Origin: Globisporangium splendens
Lineage: Eukaryota; Oomycota; Peronosporomycetes; Pythiales; Pythiaceae
DNA: 64,000 nucleotides
Direction of reading: 5' to 3'
Assembly: GCA_006386115.1 (NCBI GenBank)
Contig: VFIW01000105.1
Coordinates: forward strand, 62,001 to 126,000
This document shows, piece by piece, positions 6,798 through 64,000 of this stretch (its first letter is position 1; each line of letters starts with the position of its first letter). The position numbers were made by a program, and so were the translations under genes. Below the pieces are notes generated by a model. The model was not told where the DNA came from, made no database searches, and saw only the letters and a program-made list of their open reading frames with translations.

Positions 6798-6901
6798 CCT
6801 GGTAGCACTTCGAGCGGTCCTTCCAGCGACCAAGCCAAGAAAGGTTTGACGAAGCGGCTTTGAGCACTTCGCGCATTCCTGTCCAAGACCTACTTCCGTC
6901 T

Positions 6902-8014
6902 ATGTCTGAGAACATGGAAGGAGTAGATGTGCCACTCGGTCCAGCAGTACCGGAAACTGTCGAGTTGACGAATGAGTATTTTCCTCATTTGTCTTCTTAT
7001 GAGTGGTCGGCGCTGGAGCGGATGCGAAACGTCATCGGGGAGGCTGCTGTAATCAGCCTGCTACGATCGGCGTCTCCTGAAGACCAGAAGAACGCCGCGG
7101 TCAGTTTCATGCACCACGAGATTATTGAATCTCGAAAGCAGGTCGCAACCCCTGTTTCGTCCTTCAGGACGGTGCCGCTGAAGCTGGATGTCTCTCCGTA
7201 TCGTGGCGGAGAGAACGAGCCTCTTTCGAGATGGTTCGTCGAGTTGGATGCAGCTATCACTGCAAGACAACTGCGAGACCCAATGCAGCGAGTGTTGTTC
7301 GCGATGTCCAACCTTGCGGGTCGTGCAAAGAGCTGGGCTTATGGGAAGCGTTTGTCGGATCCAAACTGCTTCTACAGCTACGAAGACTTCAAGGCAGAGC
7401 TCAAGACAGCGTTTGAACCACCGCAGAGTGAGTTCCGTGCGCGTGCCGAGTTCCTCAAGCTTCGCCAAGGCCGTTTCGACCTTCACTCGTATGCACAACG
7501 AGCGCGCTTCCTGGTCTCAAGCATCGTGGACGAGCCGATTGACGTTCCAACGCAAGTCGTGACGTTCATGACGGGTCTGAACGACGGGCCAATCCGGAAC
7601 CAATTGTTCCGTGAGTATCCCAAGACGCTGGACGAAGCCATCAGCCGTGCGATGCAAGAAGAGTTCAGCATCAAGCAAGCCAAGTTCCAAGGGTTTCCGT
7701 CAAGGCCACCAAGACAAGCGAATGTCGCGCACGATGGTCCAGAGCCGATGGACATCTCGTACATTTCCACGCCTGGAAATGGACGTCCTCGCAACGATGG
7801 AAAATGTTTCCGTTGTGGGAAGTCGGGTCACTTCGCTCGGAACTGCAAGATGTCTTTGCCTGACCGGCAAACGACACAGGGTTCGCGCTCGAACAACTAC
7901 GGTCGCGGCCGTGGGTTCGATCGTTCCCAACGTTCAAAAACGGGAACGACCAGTAGGGGCGGGGCCTCCTACTGGGCTCGAAAAGAGGACTGTGTTTGTG
8001 GATACACAGTGTGA
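6902..8014 (+). CDS. gag: Gag polyprotein of Gypsy element A (3' end truncated)
   Basis: Starts at ATG 6902 (MSENMEGVD). The capsid-like retrotransposon gag region includes a conserved GRAKSWAYGKRL stretch and is followed by the zinc knuckle CFRCGKSGHFARNC (CX2CX4HX4C) and an Arg/Gly-rich tail. The frame runs 5 nt into the LTR of element B. The element had a frameshift region like that of element C, but one A of the slippery run is missing (CAAAAACG), so the native gag stop is no longer in frame. Gag would package the element RNA into virus-like particles; this copy cannot complete a cycle. Confidence 0.85.
   Translation: MSENMEGVDVPLGPAVPETVELTNEYFPHLSSYEWSALERMRNVIGEAAVISLLRSASPEDQKNAAVSFMHHEIIESRKQVATPVSSFRTVPLKLDVSPYRGGENEPLSRWFVELDAAITARQLRDPMQRVLFAMSNLAGRAKSWAYGKRLSDPNCFYSYEDFKAELKTAFEPPQSEFRARAEFLKLRQGRFDLHSYAQRARFLVSSIVDEPIDVPTQVVTFMTGLNDGPIRNQLFREYPKTLDEAISRAMQEEFSIKQAKFQGFPSRPPRQANVAHDGPEPMDISYISTPGNGRPRNDGKCFRCGKSGHFARNCKMSLPDRQTTQGSRSNNYGRGRGFDRSQRSKTGTTSRGGASYWARKEDCVCGYTV
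7936..7975 (+). promoter_or_regulatory. decayed -1 frameshift region of element A (stem intact, slippery run short)
   Basis: The stem arms CCAGTAGG (7950-7957) and CCTACTGG (7968-7975) are perfectly complementary. The slippery run has only five A residues before C (7936-7940), against six in element C. Compared with element C the last stem pair is G-C instead of A-U on both arms, a compensatory change. Confidence 0.65.
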
Positions 8015-8557
8015 CCGGACACTTCCGAGTTACGCAGCACGGTACGTGTGTGAGGAAGCGTGTGCACGACTTCTCTCAAGGACTCTGTTCCAAGAGCTGT
8101 TGCCTGCTTCCTGCAGCGCAACGATCGGTTACCTATAGATCTCTATAGAGTAACCGTCAATAACTAAAGGCTTAGTCAGAGGTAAAAATGGAACTGTTTA
8201 TTTGTTGGGGGTTGCCCTCTGCAGGACACCCTGAGTTATCTTTAGTTCACTATCTAGCATAGTGAACTTCCGCTTATTTCAATGTGGACATAAGTGAATG
8301 GCTCTGAATTGCCGTGTTATTCAATTGGTCTAAAAGCATATAGTTTTAGCCTATGAGAGTCGTGTCTGTGACCGACCTCTAATCAGAGTAGCTTGGCTAC
8401 CTTTGTGGTTCGAGTAAGTGCGGCGAACCTAATGGTTCGGCTGCTTTGGTGTTTCTCGTAGCTAAGTACGGAAGCTTTAGTTGCATGCGGACTTAGTCCA
8501 ATGCCAATAGATTGAGCTGAGTTGCTGCGGTGCAACTTAGCGTGTGACCCCGTTACA
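8010..8557 (-). repeat. 3' LTR of Gypsy element B (548 bp)
   Basis: Same length as 16620-17167, with about half a dozen substitutions noted by eye. On the minus strand it starts TGTAACGGGG; its far end reads GGTCACA instead of GGTTACA. It contains a perfect hairpin with arms AGTTCACTAT (8244-8253) and ATAGTGAACT (8259-8268). Confidence 0.92.
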
Positions 8558-8722
8558 CCACCCCCCACCTAAAGTGCGAAACACGGGAGTGGTTTCGAAA
8601 GAGTGGTGGCCACGCTACGACGCACGAAGTCGTGGTCAGAATTCTTCGGGAGAGGCACTGCGAACACGCGTGCAAATCTCTCCGATAATCATCGCAACAT
8701 CACAAGTGTGAACGCACACGTG

Positions 8723-10378
8723 ATGGCGACGAACAAATCGGTGCGCGAAAAGATCGCCCGAAGCGCGAGCGGTCCTGCAGAAGGACTCGTTCAAAGACTG
8801 CAGAAGCTCGACGCTGAGAAGCGCGAGGCGGCAAGCGCAAAACAACGCGCTGCCGCTGCGGTCACGTCTGCCACGGAAGACGTGAGCATGAGCGACGACG
8901 AGTCGACTCAATCGAAGACTGCTCCTGACGGTGTCAGTGAGCTGCAGTTTGGCGATCTCCCTGTCATCAAGCCGATGAGCAGGGCAAGCGACGCCGATGA
9001 CGACACGGCAGTCGACTACCAAGAGTACTCACCCGAGGAAGGGGAGGAAGAGGAAGGCATCACCGTGAGGCGCGACTCCATCGACGAGTGGGTCGAGTAT
9101 GAGGAGCTGCGTTACGGGAGCGGTAGCCCCGAACTGCACGAGTTGGAGCGAAATCTCTCGGCAGACGTCTCGATTTATCGGACGGAGGAAGAGAATGACG
9201 TCGCAAAGACTGTCAATGAAAGGGAGAAGGAGGAGGTCATCATTACTAACAATGAGACCGGACTGGAACCACCACCAAAAGGTTCCGTCCATTTTTCGCT
9301 TCCCATTATGCCGCCGCCAAAGGAATGGCCGACAGCGAAAACCCCGGCAAATTTACTTGCACGGGCGCGGGTTCCACTCGAGAGGTATGACTCCGAGTTC
9401 GCACGATGGCGCGAAGCCGATCTGCGAGGACGTGATGGGGCACTGCGCGTGCACCCGATCCCGGTTATTCTTTACGAAGGTGAGACCGAGGATCAATATG
9501 AAACCGCGTTCTTGGCATCAAGAACCGGTGTGAAACGCTTTGGGGCTGCGCGTACATTGGCCACCGATCCTGGGGCACAACGTAGCCAGCGCATGCAATT
9601 CGCTGTGCAGCGCGTACAAAAGTACCGCGAAGCGACAAAGAGTGATGACCGTGCTCGCACGAGTCTCGGTATTAACAAGCGACAGATGGACGAGTCTCAC
9701 TCGCCATCAACGCACGCTCAAAAGCGGCGACCATGTTGGGAACGTCCTCGAGGAGGCGCTCTGCAGGCTCCCATGTGCTCTGCGACAAATCGTATCCACG
9801 CCACTTCACAAGGTAGTGGGTGTTCCCCTTGCGCCGCTGCACACGCAGCAGGCGCTCGACATGGTAGTGGCGCTGTCCCTGTTTATCAATCAGCGGGACC
9901 GGTGGCGCCCTACCGCGCTTCAGCATCGGTGGTTGTACCAGATGCGATGGTTCAGATGGTTCACGCGAACGCATCGTCTTTGGGGGCGCTACAGCAAGAC
10001 GTCCATGCCCTTCGCCAGCGATATCTGGACGAGACCTCGCTGTTAAAGCAGAGGGTGACGGCGCTTGAGACGGAGCTGAGGGAAGCTCGTCAGATGCTAG
10101 AGGAGTACCATGTCCGCGGGAAGAACTTCCACGCAAGGTACGCTCCGCGAGTGAAGACGCTTTGGGAGAGGCACAACGCGCTCGTGTCTCGATGGGCGGC
10201 GTCTGACCCCCCTGATGAGACCGACGTGCTCCCGCACTGGGGTAAGAATCCGCAGCAGCATCATGGTAGCGTTTCAGCAAACCCACGTAGAACACGGGGT
10301 GCGTTGCCATTCGCGTTGGGAGATCGAGCTTGTAATTCAAGTCTCCAATCTCCTCCACAACAGTGTACGGCCCGATGA
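8723..10378 (+). CDS. antisense ORF of element B (acidic protein with C-terminal coiled coil)
   Basis: Runs opposite to gag-pol. The first in-frame ATG is 8723 (MATNKSVREK); the frame is open from 8603, right behind the LTR. It encodes about 551 residues: an acidic middle (EYSPEEGEEEEG), a region with RWREADLRGRDGA, a basic patch, and a heptad-rich segment near residues 415-470 (ALRQRYLDETSLLKQRV). The first 950 nt lie outside pol; the last 707 nt overlap pol (stop at 9672) opposite the chromodomain and linker. No known domain is recognised. It is not a simple shadow, because most of it has no gene on the other strand. The role is unknown; structural or regulatory functions are conceivable. 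Confidence 0.65.
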   Translation: MATNKSVREKIARSASGPAEGLVQRLQKLDAEKREAASAKQRAAAAVTSATEDVSMSDDESTQSKTAPDGVSELQFGDLPVIKPMSRASDADDDTAVDYQEYSPEEGEEEEGITVRRDSIDEWVEYEELRYGSGSPELHELERNLSADVSIYRTEEENDVAKTVNEREKEEVIITNNETGLEPPPKGSVHFSLPIMPPPKEWPTAKTPANLLARARVPLERYDSEFARWREADLRGRDGALRVHPIPVILYEGETEDQYETAFLASRTGVKRFGAARTLATDPGAQRSQRMQFAVQRVQKYREATKSDDRARTSLGINKRQMDESHSPSTHAQKRRPCWERPRGGALQAPMCSATNRIHATSQGSGCSPCAAAHAAGARHGSGAVPVYQSAGPVAPYRASASVVVPDAMVQMVHANASSLGALQQDVHALRQRYLDETSLLKQRVTALETELREARQMLEEYHVRGKNFHARYAPRVKTLWERHNALVSRWAASDPPDETDVLPHWGKNPQQHHGSVSANPRRTRGALPFALGDRACNSSLQSPPQQCTAR

Positions 10379-12126
10379 ATCGTGGCAACAACTTACTCCC
10401 GCTGGGGAGCGTTGTGACTGCATCGTTTGGTAGGTTTTTAATGCTCAATAGCACTTTATCATCCACACAAAACGTTTGTTTGTTCTTTCTACCCGATTTA
10501 TCGGCGTAGAGCTTCTGCTTGTCTTGCGCAGCAGCTAGTTGGTCGCGCACGCGACGCAACAATGCTGCGCGCTCATCGACAAATTGCCGCGCTGCCGCGA
10601 CGGCTTTGTCTTGCTTTTTCGTTGCTCTCGCAGCGCGTGCTGCAGAGAGATCTATTTCTGCGCCGGTGGGTGACACCGCGCGTCCTTCCATTCGTGGCTG
10701 ACGCTCACACGAGCAGTCGCCTGATTCCATCTGAGACTGGCTATTTTTGGCACGAGTACCGTAACTCGGTACCGTGGGTGATCCATCTTTAGGGACACGA
10801 GTACCGTAACTCAGTACCGTGCCCGAGATGTCAATACTCTGCGTGCTGTCCGGTAAGACCGTGACAGATTCGGAACGCGATCGCACAGGCGGCGCATCGC
10901 GCGCGTCCACGTGAGCGGTCGACGCCACGTCCGGTGACGGAGATCGCGCACTCGCAGCGAGCGCAGCGAGTTGCCCTCCTACCGCAGAACGTTCGACGCC
11001 CTCGAACAGAGTGGCGGGTACGCGCGGGTGCCGCAGCGAGTTAAAATAGAACGGAGTCACGGCCGTAGAGGCGTGCTCGTTGCTATTTATAGCAAACTCG
11101 GCGTACGGCAGCCAGCGGCTCCAGTCGCGGGGATGATCGACAGCGATGCTGCGAAGAATATCCTCGACGACACGGTTCACGCGCTCGGTTTGCCCGTCTG
11201 TCTCGGGGTGATCGGCAGTGGACATCGCCAGATCTGTGCCGAGCAGGCGAAAGAGTTCGCGCCAAAAGGCAGCGGTGAAACGCGGGTCCCGGTCTGATAC
11301 AATAGACTCGGGCAAGCCGTGATAGCGGAACACGTGCTCTAAAAATAGGCACGCCGTCTCTTGGGCAGTGACATGCTTGCGCACAGGCGCAACATGCACC
11401 ATTTTGCTCAGTCGGTCGACGAACACGACGACGCCTGTGTTGCGCGCCTTGTCTTCCGGGAAACCGAAGACGAAATCCATGCTGACCGACTTCCAGCAAT
11501 CTTGCGGAATCGGCAGCGGATGCAGCGGCGCTTTGTTCTTGCCCGCAGGCTTCACACGCTGGCACTGTTCGCATGAACGTACATAATTGGCCACCCATTT
11601 GTATTGGTGTGGCCACCAAAACACATTGGACACTTGCAAGAAGGTCTTTTCACGCCCGAGATGCCCACTCGCTGGCGCATCGTGAAACTCATGAAGGATC
11701 GAAAGTTTCAGATCCTGGTCATGCGGTACATACACACGCGGGTAATCGAAGTTGGACAGTCGATGCCACAACAACCCGTCGTGGTAACTAAACCGAGCAA
11801 GCTTTGACTCGAGTTTGGCAGGCAATGACTCTTTCGACGAGCCGTCAAAGTGAGCAATCAACAAGCGACATTGATCGTCCTTTGGATAAAGCGACTGAAT
11901 ATTGTCCTTGAGCTTCTTTGCACCCGACTGATGCTCAGATGCATGAGATCAGGAGCGCGCTCCGAACACAGAGCGTCGGCGCTGTTGTCAACGCTCGACT
12001 CGTAATCTGGACGGCGCGAAAGCGCGTCCGCCAGAACATTTTCCTTTTCCGGCTTGTATTCGACCCGAAAGTTGAACTCGGAGAAGAATGCAAGCCATCG
12101 CGCCATTCGCTGCGACAAATGGGGAG

Positions 12127-12776
12127 TGTAAAAGGGCGCTGTTCCAAACAGTCCCCAAAACACAGCACATACGCTTGTGCCAGAGGAAGCGTCTCCCGAC
12201 TTGGAGGGAGGAAGGAAGACTTGAGGGCTTGGTGGTAAAATTGCAACTGAATTAAAATGCTTATGGTTCCTGTCGCTACTTGTAAATGAACCTCAAGGGA
12301 TCCCAGAGGTTTTATAACTAAAACCTAAACATACACAATAAAACCTATGAATCTGATATATAAAACCTTGGGTACACTGAGGTTGAACCCACGAGATCTT
12401 CTAGAAACTTGAACTTGAAGTCCCGTGGAAAATTCCCTGCAAAGTGATTGGCTACAGCCACTCACTTTAGGTGGCAGAGACACGTTGGTCTCATCACCAG
12501 TGCAGTTTCCCAAGTAGGAACCATCACTCAGTACTTGATTAGTACATGGATGCCATCACTCTGTACTGATTAGTACATGTGAACAACATTCTGCACTGAT
12601 CAGCACAGAGAGCGCTCGTGACGTCATGGGATGACGTCACATGTGCATGTGGGGACTGTCGTACCGTAATCCCTTTGTTATTTGTCTCTCCACAATGCGC
12701 ACTGAAGGTGGTGTGTGGCACACTAGATCTGAGAACAGATCCACCTTCATGTAATGGCTAAGTATAGCCCATTACA
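12127..12776 (-). repeat. solo LTR of family A inserted in RNase H of element B
   Basis: A 650-bp inverted copy of the LTR at 6149-6797. It is flanked by the 5-bp target duplication GGGAG (12122-12126 and 12777-12781). It splits the RNase H reading after the residues TAINSP; the protein resumes with HLSQRMARWL as in element C. A solo LTR forms by recombination between the two LTRs of an inserted element, so a full family-A element once sat here. Confidence 0.93.
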
Positions 12777-16547: not shown

Positions 16548-16619
16548 GATGAATCCTTGAGGAAGCGATTCAGGCAGTCACCTCTGCCGGGTCGTAGATT
16601 GACTACTAGTGCTACCAGT

Positions 16620-17167
16620 TGTAACCGGACACTTCCGAGTTACGCAGCACGGTACGTGTGTGAGGAAGCGTGTGCACGACTTCTCTCAAGGACTCTGTTC
16701 CAAGAGCTGTTGCCTGCTTCCTGCAGCGCAACGATCGGTTACCTATAGATCTCTATAGAGTAACCGTCAATAACTAAAGGCTTAGTCAGAGGTAAAAATG
16801 GAACTGTTTATTTGTTGGGGGTTGCCCTCTGCAGGACACCCTGAGTTATCTTTAGTTCACTATCTAGCATAGTGAACTTCCGCTTATTTCAATGTGGACA
16901 TAAGTGAATGGCTCTGAATTGCCGTGTTATTCAATTGGTCTAAAAGCATATAGTTTTAGCCTATGAGAGTCGTGTCTGTGACCGACCTCTAATCAGAGTA
17001 GCTTGGCTACCTTTGTGGTTCGAGTAAGTGCGGCGAACCTAATGGATCATCTGCTTTGGTGTTTCTCGTAGCTAAGTACGGAAACTTTAGTTGCATGCGG
17101 ACTTAGTCCAATGCCAATAGATTGAGCTGAGTTGCTGCGGTGCAACTTAGCGTGTGACCCCGGTACA
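16620..17167 (-). repeat. 5' LTR of Gypsy element B (548 bp)
   Basis: Ends TGTAACCGG...CCGGTACA on the plus strand. It is followed on the minus strand by the PBS. The right neighbour is the Copia gag, interrupted straight after the codons for MAK. Confidence 0.92.
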
Positions 17168-18565
17168 CTTTCGCCATCACATTCGCATGCTTCGCAAAGC
17201 CACTCAAACTCCCTTCGCATTGCTCTTCTTTGCTGAAATCACGGTATGTAGAGAAGAGTCCTTCGAGCCCACAATGTGAGTGTTGCACCCAGTGTCAAGG
17301 TGCCATTCATGTGGCCGCTGTACATTATCATTTCTTGCCACATCAGCGCCTTCGGCTCTCCCTGCTCTCCCCTCAGTTTCGTCAACTACTTGAGATTTCA
17401 TTCGGTTAACATCGATGTTTTTTTCGATGTCGCATGCAAGTGCCGCCGTCTCTGCTTTCTCTTCATCAGGTTCCACTGGGTTAGCACTCACTTGTTCTAG
17501 GTGATCCTTAATTTGGCCGTTGTCACCCTTTTGAGTTTGAATTTGTAGCCTTTTCCGACTGCGTGTCGAGATACAAGCCCCGGCGCGTTTCTTCGCGGCT
17601 GTGCCTGCCGTCTTCATGTTGCCTTTGCGTTGTTGCATATTACCAGCAGATGCTATAGCTACGTTCGCAGGCAATGGGTTCGGACAAAATCGTGCGATAC
17701 GTCCCGGTTCTCCACACCGATGACACGTGCCATGCTTAGGACCTGAAAGTAGCGGCTTCTGTCGCTTCTGCTGTTTGGCGCTCTTCTTTGAGTTGCCATC
17801 GTCGCACTGATTCACAGAGCCCTTCTGCTGCCAAATGTCTTCCTCGAGCATTTCGGCCTCAGCTAGCAGAATCATATCACGCACGCCTTCGGGAGTATAG
17901 TTTTGCGCGCTCGCTCCAATTCGAATAGATCTCTTCAGTTCACGATACTCTCGAGTCTTTGGCATTGCCTTGAGCAGAGCGGCAGTCATGTCTTCGCTCT
18001 GTACATTGTGTTGTAAGAGCGCAAGATGATCACGGATGCGAAACACGGCGGTGATATGTGTCTCCATTTCGCCGTGCTTGCAAACGTAATTCTGAAGCTG
18101 CTGGACCAAGCGCCGGATCTCAAACGACTTGCGCAGAGGGTATGCATACCCCTCATACGTCTTCACCAAGTCTGCCTAGATGTCTGACCCACTCCTGTGG
18201 TTCAGAAATCTATCAGCGAGATTCATGTTTAGGGAGCTCATGATTAGACGGAAGATCTTCGCTTGCTGGCACTTGAATTTCGCCACACGTGCATCGTCCC
18301 ATGTTTGGTCCTCTTTCAGCGTTCCCGTTGCGATCTCCAAGAGCTCGTTCTCTCCGAAGGTCGCCTTCATCATTGCCTTGTAGTACTCCCAGTTCTTTCC
18401 ATCCCAGTTGATTGGGATGCCCTTCGTCGAGAGTTCGATCTTGGCGCTCAATGATGCCATGGTCCTCTGTATCTTGTCTTCTAGTGTGCAAGTCTTCGGC
18501 GGTGCCAGCTCACGCAGTTTGGGATCATAACCCTGTTGGAATTTGCACTCACCCTGTTGCTGCAC
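17168..18565 (-). pseudogene. Copia (Ty1) element gag-protease fragment
   Basis: Reads MASLSAKIELSTKG from ATG near 18460, through a UBN2-type gag core (LLKAMPKTREYRELK) to the zinc knuckle CHRCGEPGRIARFC and the Copia protease start HLDTGCNTHIVGS. It is inactivated by an in-frame TAG (near 18177) and a frame change near 17265, after which FSKEEQCEGSLSGFAKHANV continues. The 3' part is cut by the LTR of element B. Its own LTR and PBS were not recognised; the upstream boundary lies somewhere in 18566-18745. Confidence 0.82.
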
Positions 18566-32124: not shown

Positions 32125-32547
32125 TGTAATGGGGCTCCCCATTACATGGGTTCCCGGGTCAGGAGAGTGTGGGTTTTCACCCACATGGGTTTTACCACCT
32201 CTCCCAAACCCACCCACTACGTACAGTTGGTGACACATTAACATGTGTCACTCATGAACACTGTACATAGCCATTTGCATATTAGCCAACAGGACTAAGC
32301 CATCAGGATTTAATCCCATTGGACGATAGTCGGACCGGACACCCGACTATCTACCAATGAGAGACACCGTAGGTTTCAGTCACCAGGACTGCATATTAGC
32401 ACTTTAACAATTCAATTCACTTCTCAATTTGCACGTTAGCGCGCAAAGCTTCCTCCTCTCTCTCTAGACACAGCGTTACCGCTGTCCCCTTCCTCCCACC
32501 TGCGCTTCCTCAACGCACGTGTACGCCGTGTAACGAGTCCCGTTACA
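32125..32547 (+). repeat. 5' LTR of element C (423 bp)
   Basis: Starts with a perfect 10-bp palindrome, TGTAATGGGG-CT-CCCCATTACA. A second inverted repeat lies around CATTGG...CCAATG (about 32317-32359, with CGATAGTCGG/CCGACTAT inside). Ends CGTTACA. Confidence 0.93.
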
Positions 32548-32597: not shown

Positions 32598-33668
32598 ATG
32601 AGCTCTGACGAAGAACCGGTGATGAATGTCGAATCCGCGGAACCCGCGATTCCGACGATCAACCGGGAGGATTGCCCCCACTTGAGTGATCTCGAGTGGA
32701 GTGCCTTTCAACGCATGGGGGTGATCATCGGCGAAAAAGCCGTGTTCGCCATCCTTGCCACCTGTCCGCAGGACCAACATCGCCTCACGGCGATCGGGTT
32801 CCTGCAGAAAGAGGCGGAAGACCGTGGAAGAGAAGCAACCCGCGCAGTCCCTGCGCAGGTACAGTTCCCACGACAGAAAGCTGTGACGCTTGAAGTCGCG
32901 AAGTATGGCGGAGGAGACAACGAGCCTCTCCTCTGATGGTTCGTCGAAATCGATGCTGCCATTCGCTCCGGGTATATCTACGACTAGGAGCAACAGGTCG
33001 ATTTCGCGATGTCCAAGCTCGCTGGGAGAGCAAAGAGCTGGGCATTTGGTCGGCGAATGGCCGACCATACGTGCTTCTCCACACTCGCGGAGTTCAAAGG
33101 CGACATTCGCGCCGCCTTTGAGCCACCAAAGTCGGAATTCCGTACTCGCACGGAGTTTCTCGACGTCCGACAGGATAAACGCGATCTCCACGCGTATATC
33201 CAGCATGCTCGATACTTGGTATCAAGTATCGTGTCAGAGCCGATCGACATGGCGACGCAAGTCGCTACGTTCATGAAAGGCTTGGTGGACGGTCCCGTCA
33301 AGACCTGCTTATTCCGGGAATACCCGGAGACGCTCGAGCAAGCAATCGCTCTGGCGTTGCAGGAAGACTTCAGCGCGAAGCAAGCACGGCTTCACGCGAT
33401 TCCCCACCGTGCCGCGCAATTCCGGCACGCGAGACCTCCTCCACGTTATAGTGGTCCAGAACCAATGGATCCCTCGTTGGTTCAAGCTTCGACGACTCCC
33501 AAGAGGCCCGTCGACAAGCGCAAGCAGCGTTGCCATCGCTGCCAAAAGTTAGGGCACTTCTCCTACGAGTGCCGAGCGGCGCAGCCCGCTCCCCGCGTCC
33601 GAGAGACACATCGGAAGGCTTCTTCGCGTCCACCACGCGAAGAATCAAAAAACGTCAACCACCAGTAG
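32598..33668 (+). pseudogene. gag: Gag of element C with two premature stops
   Basis: Frame from ATG 32598 (MSSDEEPVMNVES) to TAG 33666-33668, 356 codons. It is similar to Gag A throughout and ends with zinc knuckle CHRCQKLGHFSYEC. Two in-frame stops, TGA at 32934-32936 (where Gag A has Arg) and TAG at 32985-32987, interrupt the capsid region; the frame itself is not shifted. Without suppression this copy cannot make full Gag or reach the frameshift site, so it would depend on Gag supplied in trans. Confidence 0.85.
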
Positions 33669-33687
33669 ACGCGGGGCGCTCTACTGG
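33647..33687 (+). promoter_or_regulatory. -1 ribosomal frameshift signal between gag and pro-pol of element C
   Basis: The heptamer A-AAA-AAC (33647-33653) is in the gag frame, and the pol frame is exactly -1. The spacer is 8 nt. The stem CCAGTAGA (33662-33669) with TCTACTGG (33680-33687) encloses a GC-rich 10-nt loop. The gag stop TAG (33666-33668) is in the first arm. AAAAAAC is a strong natural slippery sequence in retroviruses, and the spacing fits the usual 5-9 nt. Confidence 0.85.
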
Positions 33688-36600
33688 CGAATATGCGTCT
33701 GGTGTGATCGTGGTGCACGAGACGCAAGCCCCCAGCGTGCATGACGCGCGCTGCTGGACTACCACGACTGAGGATGAGTCGAGAGATCGGCTCACCCAAC
33801 TTGAGATAACCGTAGAGGGATTTACGACCCCTCTGCGGGCACTGCTAGACACAGGTGCGTCGAGCAATTTTGTTCGATCGCACGTCGCCCGTGAGCTAGC
33901 GAAAGTAATCTCGGAGGAATCACATTCCTCCGACTCGAAGATAACCGTACGGTTGGCAACAGGTGCCACCGTCACGACGACAAAATACGTGACACGACTC
34001 CGTGTCACGCATGATGGATGCCAAACGGAAGGAGACTTCATTTGGCTGGATTTAGATGACAAGTTCGATGTCATCCTTGGAATGCCTTGGCTGAAGAAGT
34101 GCCAGCCGATCATCGATTGGAACAAACAGTCGATTAGTTACCCCGCTGCGAAGCGGAATCAGGTTAACCGCCCGTCGGCGAGCAACGCGCTGACGGTAAA
34201 CGAACTTGATGCAAGGGTGTGCGATGGCCCCCTTAGCACGAAGTTCGAAGGAGAAGAAGCCGAAAAGTTTCAAAGACAGACCTCGGCAGCCCATCGCTCT
34301 GCACAGACGAGCGATGATGAAGGAACAGTACCGCCAGTGGAGACCTCTGATCAAGGCTCCTCGTGCGAAGTCATCAGTGTCATGGTTACTGATGAGGATG
34401 GATCTCATATACATGAGATGGCGTTAGAAGACCCTCCGAAGGACGCTTCGGAAGTGGTAACGCTACCCGTGATGAGCCAAAAACGGTTCATGAAAGAACT
34501 GCATCGAGGCTCCCTCGAGCAGATATGTTACATTGCTCCTCAGGGATCGAGCAATGCTGAGTCGGCGGTGCAGAGGCACCCACTCGATGAATGCTTCCTG
34601 GCATCGTCATCAGTGATGGACACTGATGTGCTCGACGAACCAACGAAGAAGCAACGATTTCAGGCTCAGGGATGGGAGTCCCTGAAGGACAGTCCATTCT
34701 ACGGACTATTGAAGGAATACGAGGATGTATTCCCAGAGGAAGTTCCCAGTCGTCTCCCGACAGACAAAGGAGTTCGGCATGAGATTGATCTCATGCCGGG
34801 AACAGAGTACTGCGTCACGAGACAATGGCCACTGCCTCGTGAGCAAGTCAAGGTGATCGACGAGTTCTTTGAAGCTCGTCGCAAAGCGGGTCAAGTGCGC
34901 GAGTCGAACTCTCCGCACTGCAGCCCCACCTTCTGTGTGAAAAAGGCCACAGGAAGTTGGAGGATCGTGCACGCGTTCAACAAGTTGAATGCAGCGACAA
35001 TCCCGGCGCAGACGCCTATACCTCGCAAAGATGTCATCGTTGACAGCATGCAAGGTAGTACTATCTTAAGTACAATCGATTTGAGAGATGGGTTCTATCA
35101 AATCTTGATGCGCGAGAAGGATATTCCTTTCACGGCAGTCAGCACCCCGAGCGGGATGCTGTGGGAGTGGCTCGTGATGCCAGAGGGACTAACAAATGCT
35201 CCCGCCACATTCAATAGATGCGTCACGCAGCTACTACGTCCAGTGCGAGACTTCGCACCCAGCTATTTCGACGACGTGTTCATACACAGTCGTGCATCGG
35301 ATGCTGCATCCGATGTGGAAGTGCACAAAGGGCACCTCCGACACCTTCTGGACTTGATGCGGAAGCACAAGCTGTACGCCAACATACAAAAGCGTATGTT
35401 TGGTGTTGATGAGATCCCCGTTCTCGGCTGCTTTATCGGCAAGAGTGGAGTGCGTCCTGATCCCGAAAAGATCAAGGCGATCAACGACTGGACAGCCCCA
35501 ACAAGCCAAAAGGATCTTCGCAAGTTCCTCGGACTTGCGACGTACCTCCATAAGTACTCGCAGAACTATGCGGGTATCATCCGACCTCTTTCAACACTAC
35601 TGAAGAAAGACGTCGATTGGAAGTGGTCCGACGAATGTCAGGATTCATTCGTCAAGGTGAAACGCAGCCTCATGGAAGCTCCGGTCCTCGCGATCGCTGA
35701 CCACGAGCGACCATTCTATGTGGTCTGTGATGCATCCGACTTTGCAATCGGATGCTCGCTCATGCAGCGCGACGACACGGATCGAGAACGCGTGATCTGC
35801 TATCAGTCGCGTCAGCTGAAGCCAGCTGAGCGCAATTACCCGGTTCATGACAAGGAGTTGCTTGCCATGAAATACGCTCTAACAAAGCTCAGAGTGTATT
35901 TGCTCGGAAGTAAACGGTTCACCGTTTACACTGACCATGCTTCGCTGTGCACTGCAGTGAAGTCGCCACATCTGTCGCAAAGAATGGCCAGATGGCTTTC
36001 TTTCTTTGCAGAGTGCGAGTTTGACGTCGAGTACAAACCCGGACGGTTCAACGTGATCGCGGATGCGCTGTCACGTCGCCCAGACTTTGAGCCGAATGCG
36101 AACGAATCAAAGGAGAGCCGTGTGATGGCAATCACACGAGAAAGTACGCCGACATCGTCGCTACTTGACGATATCAAAAGAGCGTATGCGACAGACAGCA
36201 ACATCCGTCGACTTGTTGCTCACTTGTCAGATCCGTCTGATAAGTTGCTCAAGGCGTTGGACCCAGCTCAACGCGCTCGTCTGCATCGCTACGAAATGCG
36301 CAACGATGTTCTCTACTACCGTATAGATGACTGCGACGAGCTACGCGCTGTCGTTCCAAACGATAGTGACCTTCGCAATCGCGTACTCTTTGAGTACCAC
36401 GATGCGCCTTTCCGCGGACATCCAGGACGCGAGAAAACGTATCTCGCGCTTTCCCGCGACTTCTATTGGTCCCACCAATACAAGTGGGTCCGCAAATACG
36501 TACGCGCATGCGAGGTCTGCCAGCGCGTCAAGCCCGCACCGGTCACCAATGCACCGCTGCGATCTCTGCCAGTTCCAACGGACTGTTGGAAGTCAGTCTC

Positions 36601-37999
36601 GATGGACTTCATCTTCGGTCTTCCCGCTGACTCTAGCAAGAAGACTGGCATCCTCGTCATCGCGGATCGCTTCAGCAAGATGGTCCATCTCAGTTCTGTT
36701 CCTGCTAGCGTTACCGCAAAGCAGACGGCACAGATTTTCCTGGACTCCGTGTTTAGGTTACACGGAATGCCAACAGAAATCGTGTCAGACCGTGATCCAC
36801 GATTCACAGCTGCCTTTTGGCAAGAGTTGTTCCGACTCTTGGGTACTCAACTCAAGATGTCGACAGCTGATCATCCGCAGACAGACGGTCAGACCGAGCG
36901 TGTGAACCGCACGCTCGAGGATATCCTGCGCAGCTATGCGCATTCATTCACTCACTGGAAAGAATGTCTCCCTCTCGCAGAGTTTGCAATCAACAACTCT
37001 GTGCATGCTTCAACCCGGCAGACGCCTTTCTACGTGAACGCCCTCAGGCACCCACGTGTTCTCTCCATCCTCGGTGGGATGTCCCCTCCTTCGGTGACAT
37101 CTCCCTTGAGTGGGGGAGGAGTCCGCGAAGCAGCTGCTTCGGAACATGCGAAAAGCGCGGAGATCCCGCAACGACATGAACAGGCAACTGCACATGCGGC
37201 GATCGCCGATAAAGACATCGCTACAACAGTGTTGCAGCGGCAAGCTGTCATCCGCTTCGTCCGCGATTCAATCGCCGACGCAGTGGATAGTCAGAAAGAG
37301 CAAGCGGTCAAGAGTGGCTGCAAGAGCACGAACGAGTTCAAAAGAAATTCGTTTGTTTTATTATCGACTGCTAACCTACCTAACAGAGTGGTGAGCAGTG
37401 ACAGCAACAAGTTGCTGCCAAGATACATTGGCCCTTTCAAGGTACTTGAAAGGATTGGGGACGCATACGCGTTGGAGCTTCCTCCAACGATGCGTCTACA
37501 CCCGACGTTCTACGTCGGGCGTTTCAAGGCGTATCATCGCCACGATGACTCGCTGGTCTCTTCCTCTTCAGGAGACCATGACCGCGAAGGATCCCAAGCA
37601 CAAGCTTGTGATCACCCTCGAGTCTCGAAAGCCGTCCCTCGAGCCGCTCGTGCTTCGCGGTCATCTCGCTTAGCTCGACCCGAAGTCGGAGGACCTCGTT
37701 CTCCCGCTCAGCGTACTTCAGCCGATCAAGCAGACGCTGATCACTCGGAGGGTGAACCTCAGAATCACGAGCAGATCTTCCCTCCTCCAGCTCCACCGCT
37801 GCGAGACTCCGAGGGGAACCAACGCTGGATCGTGGAGAAGATACTTGCTCATCGCGATCGATCGTCGCAAGCAAAGAAGGAGCGCGTCTACCGCGTTCGT
37901 TGGCTTGGTTATCCCCCAGATCGAGATACCTGGGAGCCGGCCGTGATGCTCCAAGCTGATGTCCCTGGCTTGGTGCAGCAGTACGAGAGTCGACACTAA
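33653..37999 (+). CDS. pol: Pro-Pol polyprotein of element C (protease, RT, RNase H, integrase, chromodomain)
   Basis: Uninterrupted frame (open from 33530) to TAA at 37997-37999. Protease: LLDTGASSNF (33848), ILGMPWL. RT: WRIVHAFNKLNAATIP, SYFDDVFIHS with catalytic YFDD at 35264-35275. RNase H: VVCDASDFAIGCSLMQ ... YTDHASL. Integrase: HHCC zinc region ending CEVCQRVKP (about 36510), DDE core SMDFIFGLP (36600), SDRDPRFTAAFW (36785), DGQTERVN (36890). A low-complexity linker (37560-37800) precedes the chromodomain (RVYRVRWLGYPPDRDTWEP, 37880-37945). All catalytic residues seen are present. The minus-strand ORF overlaps 37524-37999. Confidence 0.95.
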   Translation, partial: RQPPVDAGRSTGEYASGVIVVHETQAPSVHDARCWTTTTEDESRDRLTQLEITVEGFTTPLRALLDTGASSNFVRSHVARELAKVISEESHSSDSKITVRLATGATVTTTKYVTRLRVTHDGCQTEGDFIWLDLDDKFDVILGMPWLKKCQPIIDWNKQSISYPAAKRNQVNRPSASNALTVNELDARVCDGPLSTKFEGEEAEKFQRQTSAAHRSAQTSDDEGTVPPVETSDQGSSCEVISVMVTDEDGSHIHEMALEDPPKDASEVVTLPVMSQKRFMKELHRGSLEQICYIAPQGSSNAESAVQRHPLDECFLASSSVMDTDVLDEPTKKQRFQAQGWESLKDSPFYGLLKEYEDVFPEEVPSRLPTDKGVRHEIDLMPGTEYCVTRQWPLPREQVKVIDEFFEARRKAGQVRESNSPHCSPTFCVKKATGSWRIVHAFNKLNAATIPAQTPIPRKDVIVDSMQGSTILSTIDLRDGFYQILMREKDIPFTAVSTPSGMLWEWLVMPEGLTNAPATFNRCVTQLLRPVRDFAPSYFDDVFIHSRASDAASDVEVHKGHLRHLLDLMRKHKLYANIQKRMFGVDEIPVLGCFIGKSGVRPDPEKIKAINDWTAPTSQKDLRKFLGLATYLHKYSQNYAGIIRPLSTLLKKDVDWKWSDECQDSFVKVKRSLMEAPVLAIADHERPFYVVCDASDFAIGCSLMQRDDTDRERVICYQSRQLKPAERNYPVHDKELLAMKYALTKLRVYLLGSKRFTVYTDHASLCTAVKSPHLSQRMARWLSFFAECEFDVEYKPGRFNVIADALSRRPDFEPNANESKESRVMAITRESTPTSSLLDDIKRAYATDSNIRRLVAHLSDPSDKLLKALDPAQRARLHRYEMRNDVLYYRIDDCDELRAVVPNDSDLRNRVLFEYHDAPFRGHPGREKTYLALSRDFYWSHQYKWVRKYVRACEVCQRVKPAPVTNAPLRSLPVPTDCWKSVSMDFIFGLPADSSKKTGILVIADRFSKMVHLSSVPASVTAKQTAQIFLDSVFRLHGMPTEIVSDRDPRFTAAFWQELFRLLGTQLKMSTADHPQTDGQTERVNRTLEDILRSYAHSFTHWKECLPLAEFAINNSVHASTRQTPFYVNALRHPRVLSILGGMSPPSVTSPLSGGGVREAAASEHAKSAEIPQRHEQATAHAAIADKDIATTVLQRQAVIRFVRDSIADAVDSQKEQAVKSGCKSTNEFKRNSFVLLSTANLPNRVVSSDSNKLLPRYIGPFKVLERIGDAYALELPPTMRLHPTFYVGRFKAYHRHDDSLVSSSSGDHDREGSQAQACDHPRVSKAVPRAARASRSSRLARPEVGGPRSPAQRTSADQADADHSEGEPQNHEQIFPPPAPPLRDSEGNQRWIVEKILAHRDRSSQAKKERVYRVRWLGYPPDRDTWEPAVMLQADVPGLVQQYESRH

Positions 38000-39191
38000 T
38001 CGACTCTCGCTTCCACAGCTCGCGGATTCGATCTTGCAATCCGCGAGGAAGCATCACGCCTTTATAACCCTGCAGTTGCTCCTCAGTCAGCTGAGGATCA
38101 TCGCCGGTGCAGATGCGGCAACCCCTCGGTGTGGTCTTGACCCCACACGGAACTCCAAGATCCATGCATTCTTCGTGGATCGCCAACAACTTTCCAACGG
38201 CATTGTGCCGAAGGAACTTCTCCCGATTATCTCGCAATCGAGAGATACACTTCACAGCGTCTTCGTTGAAATTCGCAACGAAGGCACTCCACGCTTGCGA
38301 AAGGAACAGCGCTTGTTTCTCAGCGCTGTGAGACTTCTTCGACTTCGATCGACCATCGAAGTACCGCATCGAATGGAAAAGGTCGATGTAAAACTCCTCG
38401 CGCGCCTTGGGATAGAAGTTCTGTCGAAGGACGAAGTCATCGTCCTTGATGGTACCAACATTATACAGCGCGTGAGTCCCAGCACGTTGAGTGCCACGAT
38501 GCGCACGAATCCAATTGGGTTTGGGTGTCCACAAGTGGCTCCAGCTAGAAGGAATGAAATCCTTCCCTTCAGAAGGACCCGTCGCCGGATCCTTCGATTT
38601 CACTGGCAAGGCAAGATAGCGAGGCAACTCGCTCTTTCCCGATGACGCAGACACCTGCGCATCAGACTCGGAATCCACATCGAAGAGCGAGTCTTCGAGG
38701 GGATCAACAGCTTCCAGTTCACAATTGGACGCGTCCAGCGAGAGAAGGATGTTTCTCGCTCCATTCACCAGGTCGGGGTCAGCGGACGCTAAACCTCCTC
38801 GACCGAGATCCTCCACCGTTGCCTCGCTTTCCGACGCTCCATCGTCGAAAATGGCAACCGCCACGGTGCTTCCGCTCGTTTCTCCGTGAGGAGATCCCTC
38901 CTCACGACGCTTCTTCCGCGAAGGCTCATTCAAGAGGACCGTGGACGACGAACGATTCGCTTCGTTTCGCTTGAGATTCGAACGGTCAACTGAAGAAGAC
39001 TCGGCTTCTTCCTCGCGATCGTCACGCACGACATTTGTCGTGGTGCTACTCGCAGGACTGTTGCAAGGAGTCACCTCCTCGCTACTCGACTCGTAGTCAA
39101 CAGCATCGCTGTCGATCGAAGACATTTGTACGAGGCTCACCTCGCACAGCTTGCGGCGTCTGAATAGCTCTCTGTTGGGTACGACGCACAC
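37524..39191 (-). CDS. antisense ORF of element C (charged protein with C-terminal coiled coil)
   Basis: Intact frame of 555 codons; the likely start is ATG 39125 (MSSIDSDAVDYESS) or 39191. It has an acidic Ser-rich N-terminus, a basic patch PSRKKRREEG that could be a nuclear signal, a central folded-looking region (AREEFYIDLFHSMRYFDGRS; CGVKTTPRGCRICTGDD, with three Cys) and a heptad coiled coil near the end (LKYAERENEVLRLRVELSEM). About 1.19 kb lies between the pol stop and the 3' LTR, where no other gene exists; the last 476 nt overlap pol. Its start is 144-210 nt from the 3' LTR, which could supply an antisense promoter. Family not recognised. Confidence 0.7.
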   Translation of the reverse strand: MCVVPNRELFRRRKLCEVSLVQMSSIDSDAVDYESSSEEVTPCNSPASSTTTNVVRDDREEEAESSSVDRSNLKRNEANRSSSTVLLNEPSRKKRREEGSPHGETSGSTVAVAIFDDGASESEATVEDLGRGGLASADPDLVNGARNILLSLDASNCELEAVDPLEDSLFDVDSESDAQVSASSGKSELPRYLALPVKSKDPATGPSEGKDFIPSSWSHLWTPKPNWIRAHRGTQRAGTHALYNVGTIKDDDFVLRQNFYPKAREEFYIDLFHSMRYFDGRSKSKKSHSAEKQALFLSQAWSAFVANFNEDAVKCISRLRDNREKFLRHNAVGKLLAIHEECMDLGVPCGVKTTPRGCRICTGDDPQLTEEQLQGYKGVMLPRGLQDRIRELWKRESISVDSRTAAPSQGHQLGASRPAPRYLDLGDNQANERGRRAPSLLATIDRDEQVSSPRSSVGSPRSLAAVELEEGRSARDSEVHPPSDQRLLDRLKYAERENEVLRLRVELSEMTAKHERLEGRLSRLEGDHKLVLGILRGHGLLKRKRPASHRGDDTP

Positions 39192-39334: not shown

Positions 39335-39757
39335 TGTAATGGGGCTCCCCATTACATGGGTTCCCGGGTCAGGAGAGTGTGGGTTTTCACCCACATGGGT
39401 TTTACCACCTCTCCCAAACCCACCCACCACGTACAGTTGGTGACACATTAACATGTGTCACTCATGAACACTGTACATAGCCATTTGCATATTAGCCAAT
39501 AGGACTAAGCCATCAGGATTTAATCCCATTGGACGATAGTCGGACTGGACACCCGACTATCTACCAATGAGAGACACCGCAGGTTTCAGTCACCAGGACT
39601 GCATATTAGCACTTTAACAATTCAATTCACTTCTCCATTTGCACGTTAGCGCGCAAAGCTTCCTCCTCTCTCTCTAGACACAGCGTTACCGCTGTGCCCT
39701 TCCTCCCACCTGCGCTTCCTCAACGCACGTGTACGCCGTGTAACGAGTCCCGTTGCA
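39335..39757 (+). repeat. 3' LTR of element C (423 bp)
   Basis: Matches 32125-32547 except for about seven substitutions (for example GTTGCA for GTTACA at the end), about 98% identity by eye, so the insertion is fairly recent. Confidence 0.93.
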
Positions 39758-41263: not shown

Positions 41264-41869
41264 TGTAAGAGGCTATCCGAGACAGCCTCAAACACGGCAC
41301 GCACGCTTGCGCTGGAGAGGAAGACTTGAGAGGAACTTGGCAAAAATGCAACTGAATTGAAATGAGCTTATGGTTCCTGACACTACACATAAAACACCAC
41401 TAGGACTCCTAGAGGTTTTATGCATAAAACCTAAACATGCAGAAATAAACCTATGAATCTGATGTATAAAACCTTGGGTACACTGAGGTTGAACCTACGG
41501 GATCTTCGAGAAACTTGAACTTGAAGTACCGCGGGGATTCCCTGCGAAGTGATTGGCTCTGCCACTCACTTCAGACGGTAGAGACACGTCGGTCTCATCA
41601 CCAGTGCAGTTTCCCAAGTGGGAACCATCATTCACGTGTCTAGAGTACTGTTGTGCGTAATCACGCCGAATCTCAATGATTGCGAGCGGCCAACACTCAA
41701 CTCAGACACGGATTGCTCTGACGTCAGACGATGACGTCACCTGTGCATGTGGGGATCACTGTTATGTGTTTCACCCAATATCTTCGCACCCACAATGCAC
41801 TTCCACAAGGTGGTGTGTGACACACACAAAGAGCCACCTTGCATGTAATGGCAGCCTTAGCCCATTACA
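41264..41869 (-). repeat. LTR of family E in inverted orientation (606 bp)
   Basis: Reverse complement of 42889-43493 with only scattered differences. On the plus strand it runs TGTAAGAGG...CCCATTACA. The PBS expected behind a 5' LTR is absent, so it is a solo LTR or fragment. Confidence 0.9.
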
Positions 41870-42487
41870 GAAGCGCATCAAAGGACTCGTCCTTTATTGT
41901 CTCCAACGCGAGAAGGCGACCATGATACTCCTTCCGAAGTATCTCAAGAGAAGTCCCTGCCTCTTCCACAGAGCGCAGTAGACGTTCGTGATACGCATCA
42001 CGAGCTTTCTCAGCCTTCTGGAGTCGTTCAAGCTCGGCTTGAACCTTCTCGAACCTCTGTTCAAAACGTGACTCCATTGCCGAACGCTGGGCAAGACCAT
42101 CGAAGAGCAAGTCGATCTTCGACTCCTGCTCCTTCAACCGGTCTTCGAGGCTTTCGCACCGGTCTTCGAGTACCGCATTGCGAACTTCAAGAGCCTCGAT
42201 CTGAGCGCGGTGAGCACTCTTCCACTTCCAGAGTCGCTCAATCGTTTTCGCGTTCAGCCCCACCTCCTCTGATCTATCATCAGGGAGAGCGTCGTTGGAT
42301 CGTTGAGTCGATAGTCGATCACGAGGATCGATCGACTCGTCGTCGAGGAGAGAAGTCGTTGAACCGTCAACGCTTCTACAGAGTACGGTGGCTTGGCTAT
42401 CCGCCGGACTCGGACACGTGGGAACCTCGAGAGACTCTTCAGTCTGATGTCCCCGACGTGGTTCACAGTTACGAACAGAGCTTGTAG
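41870..42487 (+). pseudogene. pol 3' end of element E: linker and chromodomain
   Basis: The plus-strand frame ends at TAG 42485-42487. The linker is Ser/Pro/Arg-rich. The chromodomain reads RRWIVESIVDHEDRS...FYRVRWLGYPPDSDTWEP, closest to that of element C. Upstream domains are missing. Confidence 0.85.
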
Positions 42488-42812
42488 TGCTCTCGCGAGC
42501 ACTAGAACGACGAGAGCCAAGCTCTTTATGGTCGTTCTCGAGCGTGCCTCCTAGGTTCCCTAGCAAACGCTCGACAAGATTCTCGTTCTCGAGTCAGACA
42601 AACGTCTTCCACGACTCGAGCTTCGCTGTGCTGGACTGGCCAGGATCGTCGCTGCCGGACATCTTGCGCCAGAGGAAGAACAACTCCTTGTAGAACCGAC
42701 GTCCTCCACGCTTCTTGCGAATAGCGGAGATGTCGTACAAGCCGGGAGTCGTCCGCTGCCGCTTTGGCTCGGGCCGTTCTTCGCGCTTCACTTGGTCGCT
42801 TGGTCGCTTCAT
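41870..42812 (-). pseudogene. antisense ORF of element E (basic N-terminus, long coiled coil), one stop
   Basis: From ATG 42812 (MKRPSDQVKREERPEPKRQR, a possible nuclear signal) the frame runs to the inverted LTR, with one in-frame TGA at 42596-42594 that could derive from CGA. RRFYKELFFLWRK resembles EEFYIDLFHSMRY in the antisense protein of element C. The C-terminal 120 residues are a long heptad coiled coil (LEVRNAVLEDRCESLEDRLK onward) lying opposite the integrase-chromodomain linker. Overlap with pol is 618 nt. Confidence 0.6.
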
Positions 42813-42888
42813 GGTCAATTGGAAAGTGAGAGCGGGTGCCTCTTCCGAAAGAAGTAAAGTCCGTGATGGAACTTTAAGGGAGGGATGA

Positions 42889-43493
42889 TGTAATGGGCTC
42901 AGGCTGCCATTACATGCAAGGTGGCTCTTTGTGTGTGTCACACACCACCTTGTGGAAGTGCATTGTGGGTGCGAAGATATTGGGTGAAACACATAAAAGT
43001 GATCCCACATGCACAGGTGACGTCATCGTCTGACGTCAGAGCAATCTGTGTCTGAGTTGAGTGTTGGTCGCTCGCAATCATTGAGATTCAGCGTGATTAC
43101 GCACAACAGTACTCTAGACACGTGAATGATGGTTCCTACTTGGGAAACAACACTGGTGATGAGAGCAACGTGTCTCTACCGTCTGAAGTGAGTGGCAGAG
43201 CCAATCACTTCGCAGAGAATCCCCGCGGTACTTCAAGTTCAAGTTTCCAGTAGATCCCGTAGGTTCAACCTCAGTGTACCCAAGGTTTTATATATCATAT
43301 TCATAGGTTTTATTTCTGCATGTTTAGGTTTTAGCATAAAACCTCTAGGAGCCCTAGTGGTGTTTTACATGTAGTGTCAGGAACCATAAGCTCATTTCAA
43401 TTCAGTTGCATTTTTGCCAAGTTCCTCTCAAGTCTTCCTCTCCAGCGCAAGCGTGCGTGCTGTGTTTGAGGCTGTCTCGGATAGCCTCTTACA
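42889..43493 (+). repeat. 3' LTR of element E (605 bp)
   Basis: TGTAATGGGCTC...CTCTTACA. It has a terminal palindrome, a hairpin AAGGTGG...CCACCTT, two TGACGTCA sites (about 43018-43040) and a TATATA-containing TTTTATATATC box near 43287, all as in family A. The central 180 bp are very similar to the family A LTR. Confidence 0.92.
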
Positions 43494-60067: not shown

Positions 60068-62278
<2,211 letters not shown>

Positions 62279-63303
62279 ACGTGGAGAGCAGCACTCTTCC
62301 TGGCAGATATAGACATCGACGACTATGAATCGACCACTAGCGCAGCTGTAATTTTTGCATTTTTCCATTAATACCTCTCTTTTTAACAGTCTGTTGTTGT
62401 CAATTCTGTCAATGCCAAGGCTGCCATTGACCACCATCGTACAGATTGCTCCTCTTCATTTTGTGTTCGTGCTCTCATTTATGTCTTATTGATTCGCGTG
62501 GCATGGATACGCGTGGCGACATGCATTTGTTCTGTGTGGGTGCACTTTTGGCGAGAGCTACGTTGGTGTGGGGGAGGGTTGAGAAGAGGTCCATGTGACT
62601 GTGCGGTGCCTTCATTAAGTGCGCTTTTGTGTTCATGTTGGGACCTGAACCGAACTTAAGAGCGTTCTGGAATACAAGTGCAAAATGCCCAGCTCTCATT
62701 GAGAGCAGAATGGAGAGAAAGAAAAAAACGGTCGAGAAAGATCGTAAATTCGTGAATGGAGATGCAGGGCATGGCATCCTGCCACGTCATTCCCAGTGGC
62801 ATCTGGTCGGCACACACTGCGAGCTACAGCTGTTTAACTACAAGTGCATCCTGGGGTTGTTCATCCACAGTATCCTCTGTTCGAGCTATAATAGCCCTGC
62901 ACCGACAGCAAGGAAACTCTGACGATGGGCAAGAGAGCGAGGTGCAGCATGCCGTTATAGAAAAGGCACTAAGCAAACGTCCAATCTCCTACTGCCAGCG
63001 CACATTTCGTGGATCCATTTGAGTCCGCCTTGTTGATCCTTTAAACTGCCTGCTTTCGTGCTAATTTGAGGACAGATGTGATGGGATCCGAACTTAGCGA
63101 CAGGTGTACAGTTAGCGGGGTGTCCCCCCTCCTCGTCCCTCCCGCTTGCTGCCCCCTTGTAGGATCGACCATTCCCACATTCGAGGCGTTTCCACGACAT
63201 TCGACCTGATTTCGTTCGCCGCGCGCGCCGCCGAAGAGAAGCCACCGCATCCCAGAAGCACTGCTTTAACAGTCCGTATTAGTGAGAAGAGCAGCCAGCA
63301 ACC
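62279..63303. other. 1.0-kb spacer between tandem ARF genes
   Basis: No coding signal. The sequences flanking the two ARF copies are unrelated except for CAGCAACC directly before each ATG. Confidence 0.5.

Positions 63304-64000
<697 letters not shown>

Follow-up and report, generated by a model that had tools for sequence, protein, structure and literature searches.

Introduction

Additional open reading frames (ORFs) in antisense between pol and the 3' long terminal repeat (LTR) are described, in the excerpts of the literature used here, for maize Grande (gene 23), rice RIRE2, Silene Retand, PvRetro13 and Botrytis Boty (PMC7264820, PMC11963269). According to the same excerpts, Grande gene 23 has its own promoter and encodes a nuclear protein (PMC7264820), while the Retand ORFs carry TRP28 and sometimes SMC domains (PMC11963269). 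Here we study a stretch of 64,000 nucleotides from the oomycete Globisporangium splendens (GenBank assembly GCA_006386115.1, contig VFIW01000105.1, positions 62,001 to 126,000 of the forward strand), below called the window. It contains three chromodomain Gypsy retrotransposons, the elements B, C and E, each of which has a long ORF, AS, that is written opposite the pol strand and enters pol from the side of the 3' LTR.

Overlapping protein genes on opposite strands rarely come with evidence that both strands are under selection, and ASP of human immunodeficiency virus type 1 (HIV-1) has been debated for decades. The elements studied here are a natural experiment, as there are many copies in several subfamilies and the strand of selection changes within about 500 nt. 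AS is almost certainly a selected protein-coding gene, with constraint in all three families. Within the overlap selection changes strand: at the linker between integrase and chromodomain the constraint is on AS and not on pol, while at the chromodomain it is on pol and not on AS. C and E show this switch, which is not significant in B.

The antisense gene and its frame

In element C, AS runs on the minus strand from an ATG at 39125 to a stop at 37524 and has 533 codons, in a frame that is open from 39212. It overlies the final 476 nt of pol (33452-37999, plus strand); the remaining 1126 nt lie outside pol. An earlier reading of the sequence without database searches (the sequence-only reading) had described an intact ORF of 555 codons from 39191, with 1.19 kb outside pol. 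The ORF is indeed intact, but 39191 is a GTG, and the first ATG, 39125, is preserved in copies and in annotated relatives. We consider the gene drawn from this ATG (37524-39125) the best model.

In element B, which lies on the minus strand, AS is found on the plus strand at 8723-10255, up to the stop site that is usual in other copies. This stop falls at codon 562-571 of the query alignment in all 15 fetched copies other than the window's, at an identical aligned site in the five with sequence inspected, and one stop in a B copy is therefore taken as the normal gene end. The window copy lacks it, and its frame continues to 10378. The AS of E (41865-42812, minus strand; from the ORF list and genome copies) is broken in the window by an in-frame stop at 42594-42596, and its C-terminal end is cut off at 41865, next to an inverted LTR. 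Full E frames extend to 444 codons between stops, of which, by subtraction, about 349 follow the ATG.

Apart from these corrections to B and E, the layout noticed before is borne out by the coordinates and the genome copies: in all three elements a long ORF opposite pol runs into pol. The distance from its ATG to the inner edge of the 3' LTR is 209 nt in C, 164 nt in B and 76 nt in E, which fits the 77-210 nt given earlier. Further, the relative frame is common to B, C and E, with base 1 of the AS codon facing base 1 of the pol codon (1/2/3 against 1/3/2). In AS codon numbering pol ends at 375.33 (C) and 316.33 (B), from coordinates, and at 108.33 or 114.33 in three E copies.

Conservation of the antisense frame

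Copies were searched for in the G. splendens assembly, 53,310,241 bases in 195 contigs. Family C has 78 matches, all scored, from 134 candidates; 28 of them cover the whole ORF, from query position 1-6 to at least 545, and AS is free of stops in 21 of these. The five full-length C copies whose identity is no higher than 82% all contain stops, as expected of old copies. Four copies that are partial or frame-shifted (L042, L043, L045 and L046) were excluded before the family-C counts, in which codons with stops or gaps were skipped; two of the full-length copies are outside the fetched set. In family B (75 matches, 73 scored of 204 candidates), 23 of the 34 copies spanning 1 or 4 to 601 have at most one stop, and of the 15 copies of a diverged subfamily that span 43 to 601, one stop is found in 8. 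Family E has 152 matches (150 scored of 426 candidates) at 62-100% identity, with a stop inside the match in two among the matches listed. The gene models of G. splendens include AS proteins, in clusters of 23, 18 and 21 members.

An antisense frame could also be open only as a by-product of the codon usage and composition of pol, the antisense strand then yielding no more than a regulatory RNA. Other LTR elements are known to produce noncoding RNAs in antisense (PMC7264820, in the part used here), and the C overlap stays open in 9.2% of 5000 randomisations that keep the pol protein and codon usage; the corresponding values are 1.1% for B and 0 for E. The two remaining antisense frames of the C overlap contain 4 and 11 stops. 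In the part of AS outside pol (AS-only), 1% of 3000 Markov sequences have 291 codons open in a row in one of their six frames, and at least one sequence attained the full 375-codon run. Chance openness is excluded because AS is conserved across copies.

In the AS-only stretch of family C, the ratio of nonsynonymous to synonymous substitution rates (dN/dS) is 0.27-0.52 in 27 of the 28 pairs of eight representatives, and 0.83 in the remaining pair. In family B it is 0.30-0.36 in the nine pairs between WB, L030 or L047 and L049, L050 or L051, at dS 0.7-1.5; within the first group it is 0.21-0.45 and within the second 0.59-0.85. For E we find 0.27-0.34 in five of six pairs, the sixth being undefined.

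A replacement test gives the same direction. Here, each variant shared by at least two copies was placed at random on bases that match it in kind and CpG status within the zone, and replacements were counted per frame. In the AS-only stretch, 149 replacements are observed in C against 192.8 expected and 290 in B against 344.9, with a z score of -6.0 in each; four E pairs give z -3.2, -3.7, -2.5 and +0.5 (n 2). In a control that compared all six frames, with 21 copies of family C set against that of the window, the AS-only stretch is most depleted in the AS frame (z -4.6). In the integrase the depleted frame is pol (z -8.0; AS phase +2.4), as it is in the region of reverse transcriptase (RT) and RNase H (z -8.5; AS phase +3.0). 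Frames sharing the wobble base echo these signals more weakly (-5.2, -5.6, -3.2, -2.0), the chromodomain excepted.

By dN/dS, proposed as a check with the sequence-only reading, and by replacement counts, the AS frame is constrained in the AS-only stretch of B, C and E. The main outcome named there as refuting, an AS frame broken at neutral rates with pol intact, did not show in these copies: AS-frame replacements are depleted and recent copies mostly keep the frame. The by-product explanation is disfavoured by the six-frame controls in C. Depletion specific to the AS frame, seen in AS-only of B, C and E and in the coils of C and E, also speaks against it; we regard it as very improbable. The openness of the C overlap is by itself weak evidence. 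Weighing against the gene, more than one stop is present in 18 of the 49 B copies that reach the query end.

Change of strand within the overlap

In C, the predicted coiled coil at 37581-37745 (minus strand; AS residues 461-515) lies opposite the linker from SH3 to chromodomain (37538-37825). Here 8 AS replacements are observed against 18.4 expected, compared with 24 against 19.6 for pol, and the variants fall at AS positions 1/2/3 as 3/5/20; the six-frame control gives z -4.3 for AS and +1.6 for pol. Over the linker as a whole the numbers are 20 against 30.5 for AS and 33 against 32.5 for pol. The chromodomain (37826-37993) shows the opposite picture: variants at AS positions 1/2/3 are 4/16/5, with 20 AS replacements against 16.6 expected and 9 pol replacements against 17.4, and in the six-frame control pol has z -4.3 and AS +1.3.

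In the E linker dN/dS is 0.24-0.38 in six pairs. The four pairs tested all have a depletion in AS, with z from -3.8 to -5.1, and an excess in pol, with z from 2.4 to 3.9. In the E chromodomain pol has z -1.6 to -3.7 in four pairs. The E pairs share sequences and are not independent. In the B chromodomain (9714-9866) 10 pol replacements are found against 17.8 expected, and the B coil zone has p 0.13, or 0.049 with singletons.

Several results weigh against a clean change of strand. Over the whole overlap AS is not clearly depleted, neither in C (44 against 50.8, z -1.8) nor in B (54 against 52.9, z 0.3). When singletons are included, the whole linker of C is weak (AS p 0.09, pol p 0.11), while the coil keeps p 0.018 for AS. 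At the chromodomain of C a further antisense frame is depleted to the same extent as pol (z -4.5, n 18), yet has stops. The depletion of pol in the E chromodomain has p<0.05 in only two of the four pairs, and in the B linker AS is not significant (16 against 17.6 expected).

Composition of the pol linker

In the common frame the third base of an AS codon pairs with the second base of a pol codon. Of the AS codons there, 37-44% end in G. An AS codon ending in G puts C at pol position 2, which gives Pro, Ser, Thr or Ala. The share of these four residues predicted from the AS protein and the codon usage of AS-only is 0.38 (C), 0.34 (B) and 0.40 (E), and the share observed in the linker is 0.40, 0.45 and 0.38; outside the linker it is 0.29, both in the rest of C pol and in the B integrase.

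That the coiled coil is encoded opposite the linker in B, C and E agrees with the sequence-only reading, which had also proposed that the linker is of low complexity because it is the complement of the coil. This second idea finds support in C and E, where pol is without constraint opposite the coil and the composition is predicted: here the complement of the AS coil suffices to explain a linker rich in Pro, Ser, Thr and Ala. It does not suffice for B, where the prediction is too low and the change of strand is not significant.

The AS protein

Searches for related proteins covered the AS of C and B, and that of E within the genome only. For AS no Pfam or NCBIfam family was found at its cut-off, and both TRP28 (PF04195) and bZIP are absent from its Pfam matches. 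A search of PDB by sequence gave nothing for C AS alone at an E-value of 1, and profile matches were at 0.13 or worse. With the E AS of copy L060, NCBIfam gives SMC-like and helix-rich models at E-values of 5e-4 to 3e-3, in the coil only and far below their cut-offs. Relatives with DNA were absent from viral_contigs, searched with two queries, and from genome_contigs, searched with one; both collections contain few eukaryotes.

The AlphaFold2 models of C and B AS are of low confidence, with a mean predicted local distance difference test score (pLDDT) of 35.7 and 44.5. The better-modelled part is the C-terminal helices: the coil segment of C, at pLDDT of about 63-79, and residues 406-465 and 468-494 of B (9938-10204, plus strand, opposite the linker). 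By heptad contrast, seven of eight proteins have their best proline-free 42-mer within the coil region, while that of P0045 lies at the N-terminus; shuffle p values are 0.001-0.053, flattered by the choice of the best window. The C-terminal part of AS is thus predicted to be a coiled coil. The N-terminal part is of low complexity and charged, and basic clusters are present.

Four relatives of family B AS were found, with identities of 37-47%; three of these match along the full length of the query. A motif, FHARYAPRVKxLW, is nearly invariant in them and in the window copy is encoded opposite the linker. In eight proteins, 13 of the 19 residues at 463-481 (window 10109-10165) are invariant, compared with 46 of 316 in the AS-only part, and the coil proper is not more conserved (5 of 60). 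Homology between B and C AS was rejected, as there is no profile match (hhalign E-value 0.74). C and E AS have a stretch, LYDVSxI...FY..LF, in common by eye; hhalign gives an E-value of 0.045 and a probability of 1.2%, shuffle fractions are 0.001-0.21 over nine pairs, and the printed alignment lies opposite the homologous chromodomain.

A long coiled coil behind a low-complexity, charged N-terminal part, in a position before the 3' LTR like that of env-like ORFs, would also suit a structural or assembly protein of the particle, a Gag partner or Env-like, with the coil making oligomers. The antisense orientation would require a separate transcript for such a protein, and AS has no known domain in Pfam (no membrane-segment prediction was made). 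We consider a particle protein unlikely, though less so than the by-product.

Expression and possible role

The published oomycete core promoter elements are an initiator (INR), YCAYTYY, and a flanking promoter region (FPR), MWTTTNC or CAWTTTNYY (PMC3599244, in the part used here). With a combined, shortened INR+FPR pattern, YCAYTYYNCAWTT, searched on both strands, only three exact sites are found in the window: 32417 in the 5' LTR of C (sense), 929 (minus), within the frame of a host-like ORF, and 42829 (minus). The last (42817-42829) lies directly before the E AS ATG, at 17 nt, and TCACTTTCCAAT is preserved in copies L058-L060 although the flanks differ. An ATTGG...CCAAT pair before AS is kept in five C copies.

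Other details count against a promoter. The E site has one mismatch to the full published FPR, and its 17 nt are shorter than the 32-144 nt leaders of the Phytophthora infestans set (PMC3599244, same part). The INR of the C window copy is not kept in those five C copies, and B is without an INR in 720 nt. The gene models of G. splendens drew on transcriptome hints (PMC7163027), and the inclusion of AS in them is no proof of transcription.

With its observed and its proposed parts kept apart, we find it likely that each element carries AS as a third gene, coding for an accessory protein. AS would be read opposite gag-pol from the 3' LTR side, perhaps from its own promoter, as a protein of about 350-530 residues with a family-specific N-terminal part, basic clusters that are possibly nuclear-targeting and a C-terminal coiled coil. 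With the coil written on the complement of the pol linker, selection would see the AS protein there, and the pol linker would be a tolerated by-product. The protein may be nuclear, may oligomerise via its coil and may act in trans on its own element, affecting how it is transcribed, how many copies it has or how it integrates; such action has been proposed for Grande gene 23 and is described for HBZ of human T-cell leukaemia virus type 1 (HTLV-1). A nuclear accessory regulator is the role that we would guess first, at slightly less than even odds: the nuclear and regulatory role is argued from basic clusters and analogy.

Element structure, recombination and neighbouring repeats

The LTRs of C, at 32125-32544 and 39335-39754 (plus strand, by repeat match), are 98.6% identical. 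Between them lie a gag-like ORF (32988-33668, plus strand), with a CCHC knuckle seen by eye, and pol, with Pfam matches to protease, RT, RNase H, integrase, SH3 and chromodomain. Element B is bounded by LTRs 16613-17168 (5') and 8003-8558 (3'), also 98.6% identical. Its pol is divided over several ORFs; the 3' part (9672-11948, minus strand) holds integrase, SH3 (10263-10460) and chromodomain by Pfam. Both C and B have the series that defines chromodomain Ty3/Gypsy elements: an LTR pair, protease, RT, RNase H, integrase and then a chromodomain. Element E is a remnant with linker and chromodomain (41861-42487, plus strand, from the ORF list) and 3' LTR (42889-43493, plus strand, by repeat match) only.

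Between the B subfamilies dS is 0.06-0.12 in pol and saturated beyond about 9780 (about 1.5 in AS-only). As the contrast breaks near 9780, the AS-only part of B has its own, older history and is exchanged. The low divergence of the B overlap relative to AS-only was considered as a sign of dual coding and rejected: pol dS is also about 0.06-0.12, and the contrast comes from the recombination break.

An exchanged module, together with N-terminal parts that differ between B, C and E, would also be expected if AS had been captured from the host as a gene, or as a fragment of some other mobile element, and had become attached at the 3' end. The matches with a named source are all G. splendens predictions (B and C searched, E within the genome only), and no Pfam or PDB family was found at cut-off, with the limited sensitivity of word-based searches; capture is improbable in our view. 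A further scenario places a one-frame overlap in the ancestor of these families, with the linker hostage to a self-regulatory antisense coiled-coil protein (HBZ-like, of independent origin) and the rest of AS exchanged by template switching at the overlap edge. We offer this tentatively, as it is somewhat unlikely.

The B AS genes of L049, L050 and L051 resemble mosaics drawn from two lineages, as if the module were mixed by template switching. In P0030 and P0037 (contigs of 1715059 and 115094 bases) 'Gag protein' models fuse a gag part to family-B AS. Probably these gene models bridge neighbouring elements, since gag (6806-8014) directly adjoins the B LTR in the window too.

Inverted LTR pairs at 6149-6798 and 12126-12776 (96.9%) and at 41264-41869 and 42889-43493 (96.2%) flank element parts and are about 84-85% alike between pairs; perhaps they come from auto-integration or inversion. 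At the window start, an inverted repeat (1-815 and 4943-5757, 99.9% identical) carries two copies of one ORF, which by eye we take to be ZIP-transporter-like. At the window end there are direct repeats (61523-62148 and 63293-64000, 97.6-98.2%).

Comparison with known systems

The plant and Botrytis antisense ORFs resemble AS in that the carrier is a Gypsy-type LTR element in the cases compared and in that some have SMC-type (coil) domains. AS differs in that its C-terminal part is overprinted on pol, in that it has no TRP28, and in its oomycete host. In the excerpts available, overlap with pol is not described for those ORFs, and the word 'overlap' occurs 0 times in that of PMC11963269. Compared with the own promoter and the nuclear protein of Grande gene 23, AS offers a promoter-like site, in E only, and basic clusters.

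An additional RNase H would appear as a match to the RNase_H model. C pol matches only Gypsy-type RNase H models. Chronos elements are likewise oomycete Gypsy elements whose integrase is followed by a chromodomain, but they carry a further RNase H of archaeal type; the word 'antisense' is found 0 times in the Chronos paper (PMC5348765).

Among viruses, and again from partial sources (PMC10186651, PMC8622228, PMC8781085), HBZ of HTLV-1 is like AS antisense, read from the 3' LTR side and ends in a coiled-coil (bZIP) part, but AS is without a bZIP family match. HIV-1 ASP is like AS antisense and overprinted on a sense gene. That gene is env, not pol, and the frames differ: env positions 1/2/3 face asp 2/1/3, whereas pol 1/2/3 face AS 1/3/2.

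In a literature search covering mostly titles and passages and few subscription papers, no antisense ORF overprinting pol was found in an LTR retrotransposon. The precedent that the sequence-only reading had named, Grande gene 23, holds for the antisense accessory ORF, and SMC-type (coil) domains are reported in some such ORFs. New within the literature searched are the overprinting of pol, the strand switch of selection and the oomycete host, and AS thereby extends antisense accessory genes to oomycetes.

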